A stretch of 64,000 bases of DNA from Paenarthrobacter sp. DKR-5. GTDB taxonomy: Bacteria; Actinomycetota; Actinomycetes; Actinomycetales; Micrococcaceae. This document shows, one piece after another, positions 2,814 through 33,552 of this stretch (the first letter of the stretch is position 1; each line of letters opens with the position of its first letter). The position numbers and the translations under genes were made by a program. A model generated the notes under the pieces. It was given only the letters and a program-made list of their open reading frames with translations, had not been told where the DNA came from and did no database searches. The stretch covers positions 186,001 to 250,000 of the forward strand of contig NZ_JAHBOI010000005.1 of NCBI RefSeq assembly GCF_018531425.1, written 5' to 3'.

Positions 2814-4220
2814 ATGTCAATGTCGATAGCATCCGATCCGAACCGGCTCCTGCCCGCCGAGCCAGGCGTGCGGGCGATTGCCCGTTCGCTGCTGGAACAG
2901 GTCCAGGACCTGCCCATCATCTCCCCGCACGGCCATATCGACGCGGACATGCTCCTCCACGACACGCCGTTCCCGGATCCGGCAGCGCTGCTGGTCAGCC
3001 CTGACCACTACGTCACGCGCCTGATCCACGCCAGCGGGGTGCCGCTCGACCAGCTCGGCGTTGGCCCGGGAGCCCGCACCGAGCCGCGGACGGTATGGCG
3101 CCATTTCTGCGCCGCCTGGCCGCTCTTCGAGGGGACCGCTTCCGGCTACTGGCTTCGCAGCGAGTTCGAGCATGTCTTCGGACTCACGGAAGAGCCCTCG
3201 GAAGCCGCAGCGGACGCGTTGTTCGACACGATCAGCGCGCGGCTGAAGGACCCGGGGTTCCGGCCGCGGCAGCTCTTCAAGGACTTCAACATCGAAGTCC
3301 TCGCCACCACTGACGATCCACTGGACGACCTTGCCGCCCACGCCGGGCTTGCCGCGGACCCGGCCTTCCAGGGCCGGGTGGTGCCGACCTTCCGCCCGGA
3401 TGCCTACATCAACGCCCACGCGCCGGGTTTCGCGGACAACGTCACGAGGCTGGTGCAGTCCGCCGGGGACGGCAAATCGGGATACGCCGGCTACGTCACG
3501 GCGCTGGAAAACCGGCGCCGCTACTTCATCGACCACGGCGCCGTGTCCGCCGACCACGGCGTGCGCACCCCGCTGACGCTGAAGCTGGACCGTGTTGAGG
3601 CCGAAGCGCTGTTCGAGAAGGCTCGCCGCGGGGACGTGAGCGCAGCCGAACGTGACGCCTTCGAAGCCCACATGCTGTACCAGATGGCGCGGATGTCGGT
3701 CGAGGACGGCCTGGTGATGACCATTCACCCCGGTTCGTTCCGCAACCACCACCCCGGGACGTTCGAGCGGTTCGGCGCCGACACCGGCCACGACATCCCC
3801 TTCGCGGTGAACTACACCGAGGGGATCCGGCCCTTGCTGGCCGATTTCGGCACCGCCAAGGACTTCCACCTGGTCCTCTTCACGTTGGACGAAACAGTGT
3901 TCTCCCGCGAACTCGCGCCGCTGGCCGGTTTCTATCCGGCCGTGTACCTGGGAGCGCCGTGGTGGTTCCTCGACGCCCCGGACGCCATGCTGCGCTTCCG
4001 CTCGGCAGTGACCGAAACGGCCGGCTTCTCCCGTTCGGCCGGGTTCATCGACGACACCAGGGCCTTCTGCTCCATTCCCGCCCGGCACGACACGTCGCGG
4101 CGGATCGAAGCCTCCTTCCTGGCCCGGTTGGTCGCCGAACACCGGATCACCGAGGCCGGCGCCGCCCGGATCATCGTCGACCTGGTCGATGCCTCGCCGC
4201 GCAGGGTATTCAAGCTGTGA
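2814..4220 (+). CDS. uxaC: Glucuronate (uronate) isomerase
   Basis: The 468-residue length matches bacterial uronate isomerases (about 470). Family motifs of this amidohydrolase-superfamily enzyme are visible: ISPHGHID (first metal-ligand histidines, near residue 38), NIEVLATTDDP, and YLGAPWWFLDAP near the C-terminus. It converts D-glucuronate to D-fructuronate (or galacturonate to tagaturonate) in the cytoplasm. The ATG lies 40 nt after the previous gene; a second ATG two codons on is possible. Its stop overlaps the GTG of the fructuronate reductase gene, linking two consecutive steps. Confidence 0.93.
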   Translation: MSMSIASDPNRLLPAEPGVRAIARSLLEQVQDLPIISPHGHIDADMLLHDTPFPDPAALLVSPDHYVTRLIHASGVPLDQLGVGPGARTEPRTVWRHFCAAWPLFEGTASGYWLRSEFEHVFGLTEEPSEAAADALFDTISARLKDPGFRPRQLFKDFNIEVLATTDDPLDDLAAHAGLAADPAFQGRVVPTFRPDAYINAHAPGFADNVTRLVQSAGDGKSGYAGYVTALENRRRYFIDHGAVSADHGVRTPLTLKLDRVEAEALFEKARRGDVSAAERDAFEAHMLYQMARMSVEDGLVMTIHPGSFRNHHPGTFERFGADTGHDIPFAVNYTEGIRPLLADFGTAKDFHLVLFTLDETVFSRELAPLAGFYPAVYLGAPWWFLDAPDAMLRFRSAVTETAGFSRSAGFIDDTRAFCSIPARHDTSRRIEASFLARLVAEHRITEAGAARIIVDLVDASPRRVFKL

Positions 4221-5632
4221 CTGTCCAATCCTCCGGGTCAACGTTCCGGCAGACAACAGCCCCTCGTCCGCTCAACCGGAGCACGTGGGCGGGGCCCGCT
4301 CCCGCCCCGGTGCGCATCGTGCATCTCGGTCTCGGGGCGTTCCACCGCGCCCACCAGGCCTGGTACACCCAGCAGTCCGACCCGGACGGGGAATGGGGGA
4401 TCGCGGCGTTCACCGGCCGGCGGCCGGACGCCGCGCAGGCACTCGCCGCCCAGGATGGACTGTCCACCTTGATTATCCGTTCCGACCGCGGCGATGAATT
4501 CCAGGTGCTCACGTCCATCGTCGAAGCCCGCGACGGCGCCGACCTGCACCGCCTGAAGGAACTGCTGGCCTCACCCGCAACGGCGGTGGTCACGTTGACG
4601 ATCACGGAAGCTGCCTACCATCTGCGCTCGGACCTCAGCCTGGACACCGCTGATCCCGCGGTCGCGGCCGATATCGCCGGCCTCGGCGGGGACGGCTCGG
4701 CCCCCGGGCCGTCCACGCCGCTCGGCCGGCTGGTGGCCGGACTGGGTGCCCGCCGGGATGCCGGCGCCGGGCCGGTCGCCGTCGTCTCCTGCGACAACCT
4801 CGCTGCCAATGCGGTGGCGGCCCGCAATGCCGTGCTCGGCATCGCCGCCGGCAGCGACCCTTCCCTTGCGGCGTGGATCGGGAGCAACGTCAGTTTTGTC
4901 GGGACCTCCGTGGACAGGATCACGCCGCGGACCACCCAGGCCGAGATCGACCTCGTGGCTGAGCGCTGCGGGTTTGCCGATTCCTCACCGGTGGTGACGG
5001 AGCCGTTCAGCAACTGGGTCCTGAGCGGCGAGTTCCCTGCGGGGCGCCCTGCGTGGGAACGGGCGGGCGCGGTCTTCGTGGATGACATCGAGCCCTACGA
5101 GCTCCGCAAGCTGTGGCTGCTCAACGGCGCCCACTCGCTGCTGGCCTACGCGGGGCTGCAGCGCGGCCATGCGACGGTGGCCGAGGCCCTTGCCGACCCG
5201 CGGTGCGCCGCCTGGGTCCAGGAATTGTGGGACGAGGCGGAGCACAACCTTCCTGCGGAGGGTCTGCAGATCCCGCAGTACCGGCAGGCGCTGCTGGAGC
5301 GCTTCGGCAACAGCCGGATCGCGCACCACCTGGCTCAGATCGCCGCTGACGGAACGAGCAAGCTGCGTGTGCGCGCCGTGCCTGTCCTGAAGGAGGAGCG
5401 GGCCGCGGGCAGGGCCGGGAGCGGCGCCGCCCGGATGATCGCCGCCTGGCTGGGCTATGCGGCGGCCACTTCGGGCCTGCAGGACCCGCAGGCTGCGGGG
5501 ATTGCCGAGGCCCTGGGCCGTGCGGGCCGGGACCGAACGCGGGCGCTGGTGCGACTCGTCGACGGCGACCTTGCCTCGGACGAGAACCTGCTCGACCTCC
5601 TTGAGGAGCTGGCAGGCGGAATCGGCGGCTAG
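4217..5632 (+). CDS. uxuB: Mannitol dehydrogenase family protein, probable D-fructuronate reductase
   Basis: I place the start at GTG 4217, overlapping the uxaC stop (GTGA), which gives 471 residues; upstream extensions would run inside uxaC. Polyol-specific long-chain dehydrogenase features are clear: IVHLGLGAFHRAHQAWY (nucleotide binding), VDRITPRT, and KLWLLNGAHS with the family catalytic Lys. The enzyme should reduce D-fructuronate to D-mannonate with NADH. A related altronate or mannitol enzyme is possible, but linkage to uxaC, the glucuronidase and a ManD-type dehydratase favours fructuronate reductase. Confidence 0.88.
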   Translation: MTVQSSGSTFRQTTAPRPLNRSTWAGPAPAPVRIVHLGLGAFHRAHQAWYTQQSDPDGEWGIAAFTGRRPDAAQALAAQDGLSTLIIRSDRGDEFQVLTSIVEARDGADLHRLKELLASPATAVVTLTITEAAYHLRSDLSLDTADPAVAADIAGLGGDGSAPGPSTPLGRLVAGLGARRDAGAGPVAVVSCDNLAANAVAARNAVLGIAAGSDPSLAAWIGSNVSFVGTSVDRITPRTTQAEIDLVAERCGFADSSPVVTEPFSNWVLSGEFPAGRPAWERAGAVFVDDIEPYELRKLWLLNGAHSLLAYAGLQRGHATVAEALADPRCAAWVQELWDEAEHNLPAEGLQIPQYRQALLERFGNSRIAHHLAQIAADGTSKLRVRAVPVLKEERAAGRAGSGAARMIAAWLGYAAATSGLQDPQAAGIAEALGRAGRDRTRALVRLVDGDLASDENLLDLLEELAGGIGG

Positions 5633-14780: not shown

Positions 14781-15440
14781 GTGAAGAACGAGCCCGCCCC
14801 TGCCGCCGATGCCGCCCCCGATCCCGCCCCGGGCGTTGGCGTCGGTCCGTGGGAAGGCCCGCTTCCGGATGGGCCGCAGTGGGATCCGGAACTCCTGGCG
14901 CACGGGGACACACGCAACGTGGTGGACGAATACCGGTACTGGCGGCACGACGCGATCGTCGCCGACCTTGATGCGAAGCGGCATTCGTTCCACGTGGCGA
15001 TCGAGAACTGGCAGCACGACCTGAATATCGGTTCCGTGGTGCGGACAGCCAACGCTTTCATGGCCAAGGAAGTCCACATCATCGGCCGTCGGCGCTGGAA
15101 CCGGCGCGGGGCCATGGTCACCGACAAGTACCAGCATGTGCGCCACCACCCGAGCGTGGAAGAGTTCGTCGCCTGGGCCCGGGGCGAAGGCCTGACCGTG
15201 ATCGGGATCGACAACTTCCCCGATTCCGTGCCGCTGGAAACCTACGACCTGCCGGAGAACTGCGTGCTGGTCTTCGGGCAGGAGGGGCCGGGGTTGACCC
15301 CGGAGGTGCACGGCGCCGCCGAGGCCACGCTGTCCATCGCCCAGTTCGGGTCCACCCGATCCATCAATGCGTCCGCCGCGGCGGCGATCGCGATGCACGC
15401 CTGGGTGCGCCGGCACGTGTTCGGGCAGAAAGTTTCCTGA
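14781..15440 (+). CDS. TrmH/SpoU family RNA methyltransferase
   Basis: This 219-residue SPOUT methyltransferase has a short Pro/Ala-rich N-terminal tail. It carries the three family motifs: NIGSVVRTANAF (motif 1), VLVFGQEGPGLTPEV (motif 2) and STRSINASAAAAIAMHAW (motif 3). It should 2'-O-methylate a tRNA or rRNA ribose using S-adenosylmethionine; the target position cannot be read. The GTG start has no good Shine-Dalgarno sequence but lies 6 nt after TAGGCT, so the mRNA is probably leaderless. Confidence 0.88.
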   Translation: MKNEPAPAADAAPDPAPGVGVGPWEGPLPDGPQWDPELLAHGDTRNVVDEYRYWRHDAIVADLDAKRHSFHVAIENWQHDLNIGSVVRTANAFMAKEVHIIGRRRWNRRGAMVTDKYQHVRHHPSVEEFVAWARGEGLTVIGIDNFPDSVPLETYDLPENCVLVFGQEGPGLTPEVHGAAEATLSIAQFGSTRSINASAAAAIAMHAWVRRHVFGQKVS

Positions 15441-15525
15441 GGCATCTATAGTCAGATCGGCCTTGGGGCGTTTAGGCTCTGGCGTGTGTGGGCGCAAAGG
15501 GCGCCCGCCTAGGGGAAGTCATCTG

Positions 15526-17502
15526 ATGAAGGTCTCAACTTCGCATTCCCGGCGCTTCACGCGCCTGCTGGCGTTTGGCGCATCCCTTGCCTGCGCCGTC
15601 GGCCTGACGGCCACCGCAGCCGTCGCAGCCCCGCCGTCACCGCCGCCGTCGAACAACTATCCCGGTTCGGTTCCCCCATGGGCAGGCTCGCGGACCAAGA
15701 CCGGTACGCCGCTGAGCAACACCACTGTCGAGGGCGAGATCTACCTGAAGCTGCCTGACGCCGGTGCCGCCCAGGCGTTCGCCACCGCCGTCTCGACGCC
15801 GGGCAGCCCGGACTACCAGAACTATCTCTCCCCGGAGGAGTGGATCGGCAAGTACGGACCTGCGAAGGCGGACGTGGCCGCGCTGGTCGACTATCTCAAG
15901 GCGCAGGGCATGGTGGTGACTTCCGTTCCCGCCAGCGGCCTCTACGTGGTCTTCCGCGGCACGGTCTCGCAGATCAACGCCGCCTTCAGCACCACGGAGC
16001 AGACCTACTCCTTCCACGGCACGAACCTGATCGGACCGGCGACGGCGCCGTCCCTGCCGGCGGACCTGGCCGCCCGGGTCTCCGGCATCTCCATCGACCA
16101 GGGCCGGCTGCTCACCCGTCCGTCCCTTGCCTCGGCCGACGGCGAGGCGGGCCAGACGCAGCCCACCGGCAAGCCCGTGAGCGCTCCGCCGGTGGCCGCA
16201 CCCTGCTCCGCTTACTGGGGCCAGCACCAGGCGACGGTCCCGGAGGCCTACGGGAAGACAAGCTTCGGCACGGCCATCTGCGGCTACACCCCGTCCCAGC
16301 TGCAGGGCGCCTACGGTGTCACCAGCCCGTCGACGGCGGGCGCCGGCCAGACGGTCGCCATCATCGATGCCTACGCATCCCCGAGCATTGAGTCCGACGC
16401 GAACACCTACTCTCAGAACAACGGCGTGCCGGAGTTCAAGGCCGGGCAGTACCAGCAGATTGTCCCGGACTCCCGGATGTTCATGGACCAGGCGATCTGC
16501 GGCGAGCCCAGCGGCTGGCAGGGGGAGCAGACGCTCGACGTCGAAGCCGTCCACGGACTGGCGCCGGCTGCCAACATCCTCTACGTCGGAGCCAACAACT
16601 GCGGCGCCGGCATCGACGTGGCCATGTCCACGATCCTGGACCAGAAGCTAAGCACGATTGTCAGCAACAGCTACGGCTACGTGGGCGAGGCCGTCTCGCC
16701 GAACGCGCTGATGGGCATGCAGAACCTGCACGTGCAGGCGGCCGGCGAAGGCGTGGGTCTGTACTTCTCGAGCGGTGACTACGGCGACGAGAAGGCCTCG
16801 CTGGGCTACACGTCCCCTGACTTCCCGGCCAGCTCCCCGTTCGTCACCGCCGTCGGCGGCACCAGCCTGGCGGTCGGCAAGGACAACAACTACCTCTTCG
16901 AGACCGGCTGGGGCACCACCCGGGACCAGATCGTGCAGAACGCCGACGGCAGCCTCGGCTACGCGGCCGCCCTGCCCGGGGCGTTCCGCTTCGGCGCCGG
17001 CGGCGGCACCAGCGCCGTCTTCGACCAGCCCGCGTACCAGCAGGGCGCCGTCCCGTCCGCGCTCGCCAACGGCCACCGCGTCTCCCCGGACGTGGCCTCG
17101 CTCGCGGATCCGTACACCGGGTACCAGGTGGGCATCAGCCCGATCACCAACGACAAGGTGGTCAAGACGGGCTCCTACGAGACGACCCGCTACGGCGGCA
17201 CCTCGCTGGCCTGCCCGCTGACAGCGGCACAAATGGCGATCGCCCAGTCCGCAACGGGCCACACGGTCGGCTTCGCGAACCCGGCCATCTACCAGGCGGC
17301 CCAGTCGGCAGGTTCCGGCGTGCGGGACGTGGCGCCGCAGCCCAGCCCGCAGGCCCTCGTGTTCTCGAGTTCAGTCAGCGGCGCGAGCTACCTGGTCGGC
17401 ACCGACCAGGACACCTCGCTGACCACGGCTCCGGGCTATGACGACGTGACAGGCCTGGGCAGCATGACGGTCCGGTTCGCCACTGCCGTCGCGGGCGGCT
17501 AA
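15526..17502 (+). CDS. Secreted S53 family serine peptidase (sedolisin/kumamolisin type)
   Basis: The start at ATG 15526 follows AGGGGAAG (15511-15518) and yields 658 residues with a signal peptide (Arg-rich start, hydrophobic core, cleavage near AVAAPP). An S53 prodomain follows (YQNYLSPEEWIGKYGP). The catalytic set is Glu334 and Asp338 (EQTLD), oxyanion Asp418 (SSGDYG) and Ser560 (GGTSLACP). A C-terminal DDVTGLGSM segment fits the calcium site. It is an extracellular, autoprocessed, usually acid-active endopeptidase. A strong terminator follows. Confidence 0.93.
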   Translation: MKVSTSHSRRFTRLLAFGASLACAVGLTATAAVAAPPSPPPSNNYPGSVPPWAGSRTKTGTPLSNTTVEGEIYLKLPDAGAAQAFATAVSTPGSPDYQNYLSPEEWIGKYGPAKADVAALVDYLKAQGMVVTSVPASGLYVVFRGTVSQINAAFSTTEQTYSFHGTNLIGPATAPSLPADLAARVSGISIDQGRLLTRPSLASADGEAGQTQPTGKPVSAPPVAAPCSAYWGQHQATVPEAYGKTSFGTAICGYTPSQLQGAYGVTSPSTAGAGQTVAIIDAYASPSIESDANTYSQNNGVPEFKAGQYQQIVPDSRMFMDQAICGEPSGWQGEQTLDVEAVHGLAPAANILYVGANNCGAGIDVAMSTILDQKLSTIVSNSYGYVGEAVSPNALMGMQNLHVQAAGEGVGLYFSSGDYGDEKASLGYTSPDFPASSPFVTAVGGTSLAVGKDNNYLFETGWGTTRDQIVQNADGSLGYAAALPGAFRFGAGGGTSAVFDQPAYQQGAVPSALANGHRVSPDVASLADPYTGYQVGISPITNDKVVKTGSYETTRYGGTSLACPLTAAQMAIAQSATGHTVGFANPAIYQAAQSAGSGVRDVAPQPSPQALVFSSSVSGASYLVGTDQDTSLTTAPGYDDVTGLGSMTVRFATAVAGG

Positions 17503-31247: not shown

Positions 31248-31616
31248 TCAGAGCAGGCCGGGGCGGGCGCCGAGCAGGGCAGCGATCCGTTCCCAGTCCG
31301 CGATTCGGCATCCGTCCGTGAGGCTGAACTCGGCGCGGACCTCCCGGCCCAGGAACAGCCCGGACACCGTGGCGCGCTGCGGGCCGCCGTACTGCTGGGT
31401 GCAGACCCTCAGGCGCGTCCGCACCGGGAAGAAGAGGCTCTCGCCGTGCTCCAGCACCGCGGCCAGGGCGGCCGGGGCGTCCTCCACGGTGGTTCCGGGC
31501 CGCAGGCCGGCGTCGTCCGCCACGAGGCGGCGGACGACGGGAGCGGCGCCCGGGGATTCGAACAGGGTGACCACCAGGTCGGCCGCCGGGCTGCCAGCGG
31601 GCGCTTCGGAGACCAT
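31248..31616 (-). CDS. SSI-like (subtilisin inhibitor-like) protein lacking a signal peptide
   Basis: This 122-residue protein has LVVTLFESPGAAPVVRRLVA, then VCTQQYGGPQRATVSGLFLG and FSLTDGCRIADWERIAALLG. The last two blocks align with the SSI-like lipoprotein at 32543 (MCNQIYAGPETATVTG, RTDGCKEEVW). The first cysteine pair of that relative is replaced by Ala and Leu, leaving one pair, and there is no signal peptide. It starts 3 nt after the preceding stop, in the same operon. A cytoplasmic role is likely; a protease target is unproven. Confidence 0.65.
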   Translation of the reverse strand: MVSEAPAGSPAADLVVTLFESPGAAPVVRRLVADDAGLRPGTTVEDAPAALAAVLEHGESLFFPVRTRLRVCTQQYGGPQRATVSGLFLGREVRAEFSLTDGCRIADWERIAALLGARPGLL

Positions 31617-31619
31617 GAG

Positions 31620-32546
31620 CTACCGCTTCTTCGCCAGGCCCGTGACGGCCTCAAGCAGGCGCGCCCGGAGGCCGGAGGCCTCCTCACTGAAGGAACGCTG
31701 CGCGGCCACGTACCGTGCCTTGCCCTCCGCCGTCTCGATAGGGATCGGGGGATATCCCCAGTCGGCGAGGTCATAGGGCGAAGCCTGCATGTCCATGGCC
31801 CGGATGCGCCAGGATAATTCGAAGCAGTCCATCAGCAGCTCGCTCGGAAGTGCCGGGGAAAGCTTGTAGGCCCACTTGTAGAGGTCCATGTTGGCGTGCA
31901 GGCAACCGGGTTGTTCCAGCACGCGCTGGGTGGCGCGGCTGGGCTGCAGCTCGTTGCGCGGCACCGCGGCGGAGGTGAAGAACCGGAAGGCATCGAAGTG
32001 GGAGCAGCGGATCCGCTCCCGCTCAATCACCTCATCGGTCCCCGCGCCTCCCAGCCGCAGCTGGAGGTACTCGTGCCGGATCTCCTGCCGCTCCTGCTGG
32101 TACACCATGGCCCACTCGTGCAGGCCGAAACAGCCGAACTGGGCGGGGCGTGCGGCGGTGCCGGCGAGGATGACGAGTGCGAAGTCGACGGCGTCGCGCC
32201 GGTCCGTGAGGAAAGCCGCCGTGTCCACGATGACGGCCTGCTCCGCGGCGCCGAGGCCGGCCTGCGCCCGTTCGAGAGTGCTCGGTTCCCGGTAATGCTT
32301 CCAGCCGAGGCGCTCGTGTGCGCCGTCGCCCGTCAGGACCGTGCCGGCGCCGGGGTGCCAGCGGAGCAGCTGGCCGGGCTTGTGCGAGTAGTAGGTGAAC
32401 AGGAAGTCCTCGACGGGGTGCTTCCGGTTTGCGGAGCGGCGCTGCAGGTACGGGTCGGCGTAACGGCGCACGCGCGCGGCGTGGGCCGCTTCCCGGGCGC
32501 GCCAGGCGGCGGGATCGAGCACCGCGCCGATGGCCGGAGAGGTCAC
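31620..32546 (-). CDS. Conserved actinobacterial protein, often labelled 3-methyladenine DNA glycosylase
   Basis: The GTG at 32546 overlaps the preceding stop (GTGA) and gives 308 residues. Conserved-looking strings are HPVEDFLFTYYSHKPGQLLRWHPG, FGLHEWAMVYQ, IRCSHFDAFRFFT and CLHANMDLYKWAYKL, with several His/Asp residues that could hold a metal. Databases often attach the glycosylase name, but no helix-hairpin-helix or AlkA-type motif is visible, so I treat the function as unknown. It is sandwiched between two SSI-like genes. Confidence 0.7.
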   Translation of the reverse strand: MTSPAIGAVLDPAAWRAREAAHAARVRRYADPYLQRRSANRKHPVEDFLFTYYSHKPGQLLRWHPGAGTVLTGDGAHERLGWKHYREPSTLERAQAGLGAAEQAVIVDTAAFLTDRRDAVDFALVILAGTAARPAQFGCFGLHEWAMVYQQERQEIRHEYLQLRLGGAGTDEVIERERIRCSHFDAFRFFTSAAVPRNELQPSRATQRVLEQPGCLHANMDLYKWAYKLSPALPSELLMDCFELSWRIRAMDMQASPYDLADWGYPPIPIETAEGKARYVAAQRSFSEEASGLRARLLEAVTGLAKKR

Positions 32547-33079
32547 TTGGCTCCGCCGGCGGTGAACCCGAAGAGCGGTGCGAGCGTCCGCCACACTTCT
32601 TCCTTGCAGCCGTCGGTCCTGCCGAATGCCGATTTCACCGGCGTGCGGTCGATGGTGCCGGTGACCGTGGCGGTCTCGGGTCCGGCATAGATCTGGTTGC
32701 ACATCCGGGTGGGGTCCGGCTTGGTGTCGAAGGCTGCCTTGTTGGCGAGGACCGCCTTGCAGGCCGCGGCGGGATCGGGGACCGTGCTGCCCGCGGCCGC
32801 GCTGCCCGACTTGCATTCCAGCCGGTACTGGACGGGTTTGGCGTTCGCAGTGGCGCGCACGGTGACCTGCAGCGAAGCGTCCTTCGCCACGGGTGCTGAG
32901 GCGGGCGGCGTCGTCGGCGTGGCAGGAGCGGGCGTCGTCGTCGGGGTCGAGCCCGGGGTCGAGGCTGGGGGAGTGGTTGCCGGAGAGGTGCCCCCGCCGG
33001 TGGGGCCGCCGCAGGCGGACAGCAACAGGCTGCCGGCCAAAGCGGCCGCGGCGGCGAACGTCATTCCACGCGCGCCCAT
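32543..33079 (-). CDS. SSI-like lipoprotein (putative secreted protease inhibitor)
   Basis: This 178-residue protein has a lipoprotein signal (LLLSACGG, Cys near 23) and a Thr/Pro-rich linker to about residue 70. An SSI-type domain follows: YRLECKSG, VPDPAAACKAVL, MCNQIYAGPETATVTG and FGRTDGCKEEVW. Four domain cysteines match the two SSI disulfides. SSI proteins block subtilisin-like proteases through a reactive loop between the second and third cysteines. Anchoring in the membrane suggests protection of the cell surface. Inhibition is inferred. Confidence 0.75.
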   Translation of the reverse strand: MGARGMTFAAAAALAGSLLLSACGGPTGGGTSPATTPPASTPGSTPTTTPAPATPTTPPASAPVAKDASLQVTVRATANAKPVQYRLECKSGSAAAGSTVPDPAAACKAVLANKAAFDTKPDPTRMCNQIYAGPETATVTGTIDRTPVKSAFGRTDGCKEEVWRTLAPLFGFTAGGAK

Positions 33080-33081
33080 GG

Positions 33082-33552
33082 TCAGCCCGCCCTGACGTCG
33101 GACTGGGCCGCGCCGATCAGCCGGGTCATCGAGGCATGCAGGTCCGCCGCGTCCTGGCGGGTGAGGCCCAGGCGGTCCAGCATGGCGCCCGGCACGCCGA
33201 GGGCCTTGTTGCGCAGTGCGGTGCCCTCGGCGGTGAGGCCGACGGCGAGTGCACGCTCGTTGCCTTCGGCCCGCCGGCGCGTGACGTATCCGAGGGCTTC
33301 AAGGCGCTTGAGCAGGGGTGAGAGGGTGGCGGGTTCCAGCAGCAGGGCATCGCTGAGTTCGCGGACCGAGCGGGGATTCCGTTCCCAGAGCGCGAGCATC
33401 ACCAGGTACTGCGGATGCGTGAGCTTCAGTTCCCGCAGGACGGGTTTGTAGGCCCCGATGACCGTCCGGGATGCGACGGCCAGCGCGAAGCACAACTGCC
33501 GCTCGAGCAGAAGGTCTTCTTCGGTGCCGGATGCCGGCTTGGGAGTTGCCAT
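33082..33552 (-). CDS. MarR-family regulator, OhrR-type organic peroxide sensor
   Basis: This 156-residue winged-helix protein has the OhrR N-terminal signature ERQLCFALAVASR with the reactive Cys at 21, then LTHPQYLVMLALWE, SVRELSDALLLEPATLSPLLKRLE (recognition helix) and YVTRRRAEGNER (wing). OhrR represses ohr and is released when Cys is oxidised by organic peroxides. No ohr gene is in the window. The gap to the divergent gene at 33657 has an imperfect dyad (TTAGT-GT-ACTAA, 33598-33609). It may cotranscribe with the SSI-like genes 3 nt downstream. Confidence 0.82.
   Translation of the reverse strand: MATPKPASGTEEDLLLERQLCFALAVASRTVIGAYKPVLRELKLTHPQYLVMLALWERNPRSVRELSDALLLEPATLSPLLKRLEALGYVTRRRAEGNERALAVGLTAEGTALRNKALGVPGAMLDRLGLTRQDAADLHASMTRLIGAAQSDVRAG

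Follow-up and report, generated by a model that had tools for sequence, protein, structure and literature searches.

A conserved leaderless SSI-fold paralogue encoded beside an SSI-fold lipoprotein in Paenarthrobacter sp. DKR-5 and its relatives

Within the window, by which we mean the whole 64,000-nucleotide stretch of Paenarthrobacter sp. DKR-5 DNA that we analysed, a short gene encodes a protein, hereafter the 31248 protein, that shares the fold of the secreted Streptomyces subtilisin inhibitor (SSI) with a lipoprotein encoded two genes upstream and carries no leader of its own. Comparison with related genomes shows that this leaderless paralogue is real and conserved in soil bacteria, and makes a guard role for it plausible. 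The preliminary description of this DNA had reported both open reading frames, with a conserved protein between them; we found the frames at the same coordinates, the sequence placed them on the minus strand, and the intervening gene is real, starts with GTG and has relatives in other genomes. The features of the locus are as follows.

31248..31616, minus strand: leaderless SSI-fold paralogue, 122 aa (open reading frame, alignment, predicted structure, profile against the PDB)
31395..31406, minus strand: CTQQ segment, residues 72-75, placed opposite the reactive-site loop of SSI (Cys71-Pro-Met73-Val74) in the 2sic alignment; coordinates reckoned from the ATG at 31616
31617..31622, minus strand: TAG CTC immediately before the ATG of the 31248 gene, that is, the in-frame stop of GLY plus one codon (sequence)
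31620..32546, minus strand: GLY, a glycosylase-like conserved protein, 308 aa, GTG start (sequence)
32543..33079, minus strand: LIP, SSI-fold lipoprotein, 178 aa, four domain cysteines (sub-cut-off match to Pfam SSI; structure)
33011..33013, minus strand: lipobox cysteine of LIP, LSAC, Cys23 (translation and lipobox scan)
33082..33552, minus strand: MarR-family (OhrR-like) regulator (Pfam MarR; NCBIfam OhrR-like below its cut-off)

The MarR gene lies upstream of LIP at a spacing of 2 nt, the LIP stop and the GLY start overlap in GTGA, and 3 nt (CTC) separate the GLY stop from the ATG of the leaderless gene, which continues in the GLY frame. Packed in this way, the MarR, LIP, GLY and leaderless genes look like a single operon with translational coupling, of which MarR would probably be the first gene.

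An SSI fold had been proposed for the 31248 protein, with structure prediction as the check; we ran that check, and Foldseek, VIA-align and a profile search of the PDB all agree with the proposal. The predicted models reached a pLDDT of 86.6 for the 31248 protein and 81.9 for LIP, and for each model all of the best 14 Foldseek matches were SSI-family chains. VIA-align matched the 31248 model to SSI with Z 8.5 and an rmsd of 4.5 over 97 residues; the best chain from an unrelated family gave Z 4.1. Profiles built from each protein with its aligned relatives matched SSI structures in the PDB, at E 6.7e-6 for the 31248 protein and 1.6e-6 for LIP. Taken alone, LIP scored 20.0 bits against Pfam SSI (PF00720), for which the curated cut-off is 23.9, and no Pfam or NCBIfam family, PF00720 included, matched the 31248 protein; 30 of the 58 members of the 31248 alignment match PF00720 at E ≤ 0.1. 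Searching the PDB with phmmer gave no match for either the 31248 protein or GLY, a geranyltransferase hit at E 0.37 being dismissed as chance. Staphostatin was absent among the Foldseek and VIA-align matches listed for the 31248 protein, the best of those listed being SSI chains. The 31248 protein is an SSI-fold paralogue; we do not file it as an SSI-family inhibitor because it falls below the Pfam cut-off, lacks the set of four cysteines and has no export signal. LIP has the SSI fold, the four cysteines and the export signal.

The lack of a signal peptide in the 31248 protein, also part of the preliminary description, holds: a lipobox scan finds no lipobox. A revised start site, named beforehand as a refutation, is excluded; an in-frame TAG stands two codons 5′ of the ATG, so that no N-terminal extension or signal peptide can be restored. 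We found 31 leaderless homologues, none of which has a lipobox (0/31) and whose N-terminal hydrophobicity lies well under the level of the lipoproteins. Close pairs among them (dN < 0.2) show purifying selection, with dN/dS of 0.12–0.31; values of 0.48–0.81 for the window protein against the others were set aside because synonymous distances appear saturated. Judged from these sequences, the number of homologues, the missing lipobox, the low N-terminal hydrophobicity and the purifying selection mark the leaderless form as more than chance, and we infer that the 31248 protein stays in the cytoplasm.

The cysteines were as first described: LIP has four in its domain, along with its LSAC lipobox, and in the 31248 protein the second pair survives as Cys72 (within CTQQYGGP) and Cys103 (within DGC), the columns aligned with the first pair being occupied by Ala33 and Leu51. 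Across 96 sequences (lipoproteins, outgroup forms and leaderless proteins), both pairs are present in 52, each a lipoprotein or an outgroup form, and the second pair alone is present in 27 leaderless proteins and in 13 lipoproteins, all 13 from genus g24 and all with a lipobox; the remaining four, leaderless proteins of genus g19, have no cysteines. The suggestion that disulfide loss fits adaptation to the cytoplasm agrees directly only with the four g19 proteins, and it is weakened by the 13 exported two-cysteine lipoproteins and by the second pair kept in 27/27 of the other leaderless proteins. Because 13 lipobox-bearing lipoproteins lack the first pair, its loss needs no exit from the secretory pathway, and on their account we rejected the idea that a missing disulfide and a missing export signal go together. 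The g19 proteins are those of L076–L079, where the gene after GLY encodes a leaderless SSI-like protein whose loop is altered and in which none of the four family positions holds a cysteine; the L079 gene appears frameshifted close to its end.

The 27 two-cysteine leaderless proteins show no variation at Cys72, Thr73, Gln75, Tyr76 or Cys103 and a single change, to Glu, at Gln74; the loop varies more in the lipoproteins than in the leaderless proteins. Loop variation followed no clean pattern with respect to subtilase presence, altered loops occurring also in some subtilase-bearing genomes. In the 2sic alignment, CTQQY of the 31248 protein lies over CPMVY of SSI, whose P1 position we take to be Met73, so that the putative P1 residue of the 31248 protein is Gln74; glutamine at such a position is atypical for subtilisin.

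A search for the trio of lipoprotein, GLY and leaderless genes in other genomes had been proposed at the outset, and it recovered the trio in 23/23 sampled genomes of genus g10 and in four of genus g19. Every sampled g10 genome (23/23) has at least two SSI genes, the order being MarR (where in range), lipoprotein, GLY and leaderless gene; the four g19 genomes keep this order, and Arthrobacter sp. StoSoilB13 carries the trio on plasmid StoSoilB13-2. Three genomes (G128, G069 and G283) have the lipoprotein gene adjoining the leaderless gene, with no GLY in the 7 kb examined. Most other genera have a single four-cysteine lipoprotein, usually behind GLY, and those loci examined outside Micrococcaceae that gave a match all encode four-cysteine, exported-looking forms. 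At L005 (Actinobacteria bacterium Ga0077560, 3688–4519) we observed an exported protein with two tandem SSI-like domains.

In a tree built from a short alignment of 102 columns, with moderate supports and a root that the data do not fix, a cluster of 26 two-cysteine leaderless proteins, out of 27, is recovered (88/90) and nests with the 13 two-cysteine lipoproteins in a larger group (92/82). The leaderless protein of the window falls, weakly, just outside (87/77), and the zero-cysteine leaderless proteins are placed elsewhere. AU tests are compatible with all leaderless proteins having arisen once (p 0.08), and likewise with one origin for the two-cysteine leaderless set (p 0.19). The most likely order of events, as read from these sequences, would be from a four-cysteine to a two-cysteine lipoprotein, followed by loss of the leader.

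A Peptidase_S8 scan of 16 genomes revealed a large subtilase next to the SSI genes, with I9 propeptide, S8, PA and fn3 domains and, judged by eye from the sequence, an N-terminal export signal. The subtilase is present in 104 of 295 family genomes and lies within 5 kb of an SSI gene in 79 of the 80 that have both on one contig, a count that omits G148 (placeholder coordinates) and does not represent 79 independent events, since the genomes and genera are related and a neighbourhood can be inherited. This linkage was seen in nine genera; four further genomes have the subtilase and SSI genes on separate contigs. The two genes lie tail to tail, 78–342 bp apart, in 36 genomes, mostly with a leaderless or two-cysteine gene, and the subtilase faces away, with GLY in between, in 32. 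Among carriers of the leaderless gene, 28 of 31 have the subtilase, the others being the window genome, G128 and G069; several genera have a subtilase and no SSI match. Five genomes (G009, G136, G240, G257 and G177; L174 and L189–L192) have the trio flanked by two subtilase paralogues, one pointing towards the leaderless gene and the other pointing away from the lipoprotein gene. At least three lineages are represented among the subtilases of the locus, so different subtilases came to occupy the same SSI locus. Four subtilase genes (G230, G288, G023 and G224) contain one in-frame TAG in the aligned range; the gene may be broken or shorter, or the TAG may be an error.

The window genome itself has no subtilase orthologue at E 1e-60; a DUF503 gene occupies the position of the relatives' subtilase, and the genome's other S8 or S53-like genes lie away from the SSI locus. 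Elsewhere in the window, 15367–17502 on the plus strand encodes a 711 aa protease that looks secreted, contains the motif GTSLACP, resembles S53 sedolisins and weakly matches Peptidase_S8.

We propose, with a probability of about 0.4, that the locus is a protease–inhibitor module in which the lipoprotein guards the surface and the leaderless form blocks the subtilase inside the cytoplasm. Both SSI proteins would bind the active site of the neighbouring subtilase family through the CTQQY loop; the lipoprotein, anchored at the outer face of the membrane, would shield the cell surface, and the cytoplasmic leaderless protein would block any subtilase that had folded prior to export, following the logic of staphostatins and Spi. 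As the partner subtilase is missing in the window genome, the pair there would be left over or would act on another protease. The fold, the absent leader, the purifying selection, the subtilase linkage, the near-invariant CTQQY and the staphostatin precedent all suggest such a module. Counting against it are the glutamine at P1, the missing subtilase in the window genome, G128 and G069, the genera with a subtilase but no SSI match, the shared ancestry of the neighbourhoods, and the conserved second cysteine pair, which would be reduced in the cytoplasm. A more specific version, in which a cytoplasmic SSI branch guards the interior against the cell's own subtilase and the cysteine pair is a redox switch, loose inside and locked after oxidation or lysis, seems to us rather unlikely as a whole.

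The three carriers without a subtilase, the window genome among them, are also what would be seen if the SSI fold had been reused and the leaderless protein targeted a cytoplasmic protease or another cytoplasmic partner in place of the neighbouring subtilase. Its loop, steadier than that of the lipoproteins, is as expected for one fixed partner, and its gene is packed behind GLY in the window; yet the other 28 carriers do have the subtilase, usually next door, and we saw no cytoplasmic protease gene at the locus, which leaves this reading on the unlikely side. The packing could also draw attention to GLY, whose relatives are annotated as '3-methyladenine DNA glycosylase' or 'hypothetical protein'; GLY has no Pfam or NCBIfam match, and with no family match the glycosylase label, found in one record, looks unsupported. 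That the leaderless protein regulates this translationally coupled neighbour would suit the widespread MarR–GLY–SSI order, the almost touching genes of the window and the cytoplasmic location that both products would have. We nevertheless regard it as very unlikely: a plasmid of Arthrobacter sp. ERGS1:01 carries GLY beside MarR and no SSI gene, in G128, G069 and G283 the range examined around the leaderless gene contains no GLY, and elsewhere the gene behind GLY encodes an exported lipoprotein. Because GLY and MarR occur without SSI in ERGS1:01, GLY is probably not the SSI target and is likelier a bystander.

The glutamine at P1 would be less awkward if the leaderless protein were no longer an inhibitor and had a binding or redox role, for instance as a Cys72/Cys103 thiol switch under the OhrR-like regulator that heads the probable operon, a possibility to which the invariance of both cysteines in 27 proteins also lends itself. 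The four g19 leaderless proteins have no cysteines at all, yet their close-pair dN/dS is 0.18–0.40, and the OhrR-like match of the MarR protein lies under the family cut-off, so we consider such a role quite improbable. Retention of the loop-tethering cysteine pair would be sensible in an oxidising place, as though the protein were released through lysis or a non-classical route and worked outside; with a signal in 0/31 sequences and an exported four-cysteine paralogue already there, this seems most improbable of all.

Set against known systems, the 31248 protein resembles the SSI family (PF00720; 3ssi, 2sic, sermetstatin 4hwx and SSTI 6i0i) in its fold, in the aligned loop and in the second pair of cysteines, and differs from it in having no export signal, no first pair and Gln in place of Met73; LIP shares both pairs but is membrane-anchored, and both window proteins lie under the Pfam cut-off. 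The accessible text of a study of the fungus Choanephora cucurbitarum describes one SSI-like protein that is likewise predicted to be cytosolic, but this is a prediction only, four cysteines are conserved in 19/19 of the aligned sequences, and that text reports no protease neighbour (PMC5238444). Staphostatin A is an intracellular inhibitor that prevents protease activity before secretion (PMC9696029), and the Spi and staphostatin genes adjoin their protease genes (PMC2873492). The window's relatives, though not the window genome, resemble these systems in having a leaderless gene of this kind beside that of a secreted protease; staphostatins and Spi differ in their lipocalin-like and propeptide-like folds and in targeting cysteine proteases, not subtilases (PMC2873492, PMC9696029). 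IPI/BsuPI of Bacillus subtilis was reported as an intracellular subtilisin inhibitor but has an Ig-like fold unrelated to the 31248 protein, and its intracellularity is doubted, as an alternative start would give it a signal peptide (PMC3901451), which is excluded for the 31248 protein; a review calls intracellular peptidase inhibitors rare (PMC3901451). Emfourin, also a small protein, inhibits proteases and is encoded together with an intracellular one, but its target is an M4 metalloprotease (PMC9505478), and its structural match to the 31248 model is weak (VIA-align Z 2.6). Our searches of the open-access literature yielded no description of a bacterial SSI in the cytoplasm.

A conserved leaderless SSI-fold protein whose gene adjoins that of a secreted subtilase would give the logic of the staphostatins a second fold and a second protease class, and the four-, two- and zero-cysteine forms, exported or not, are a natural series in which to test the role of the disulfides.
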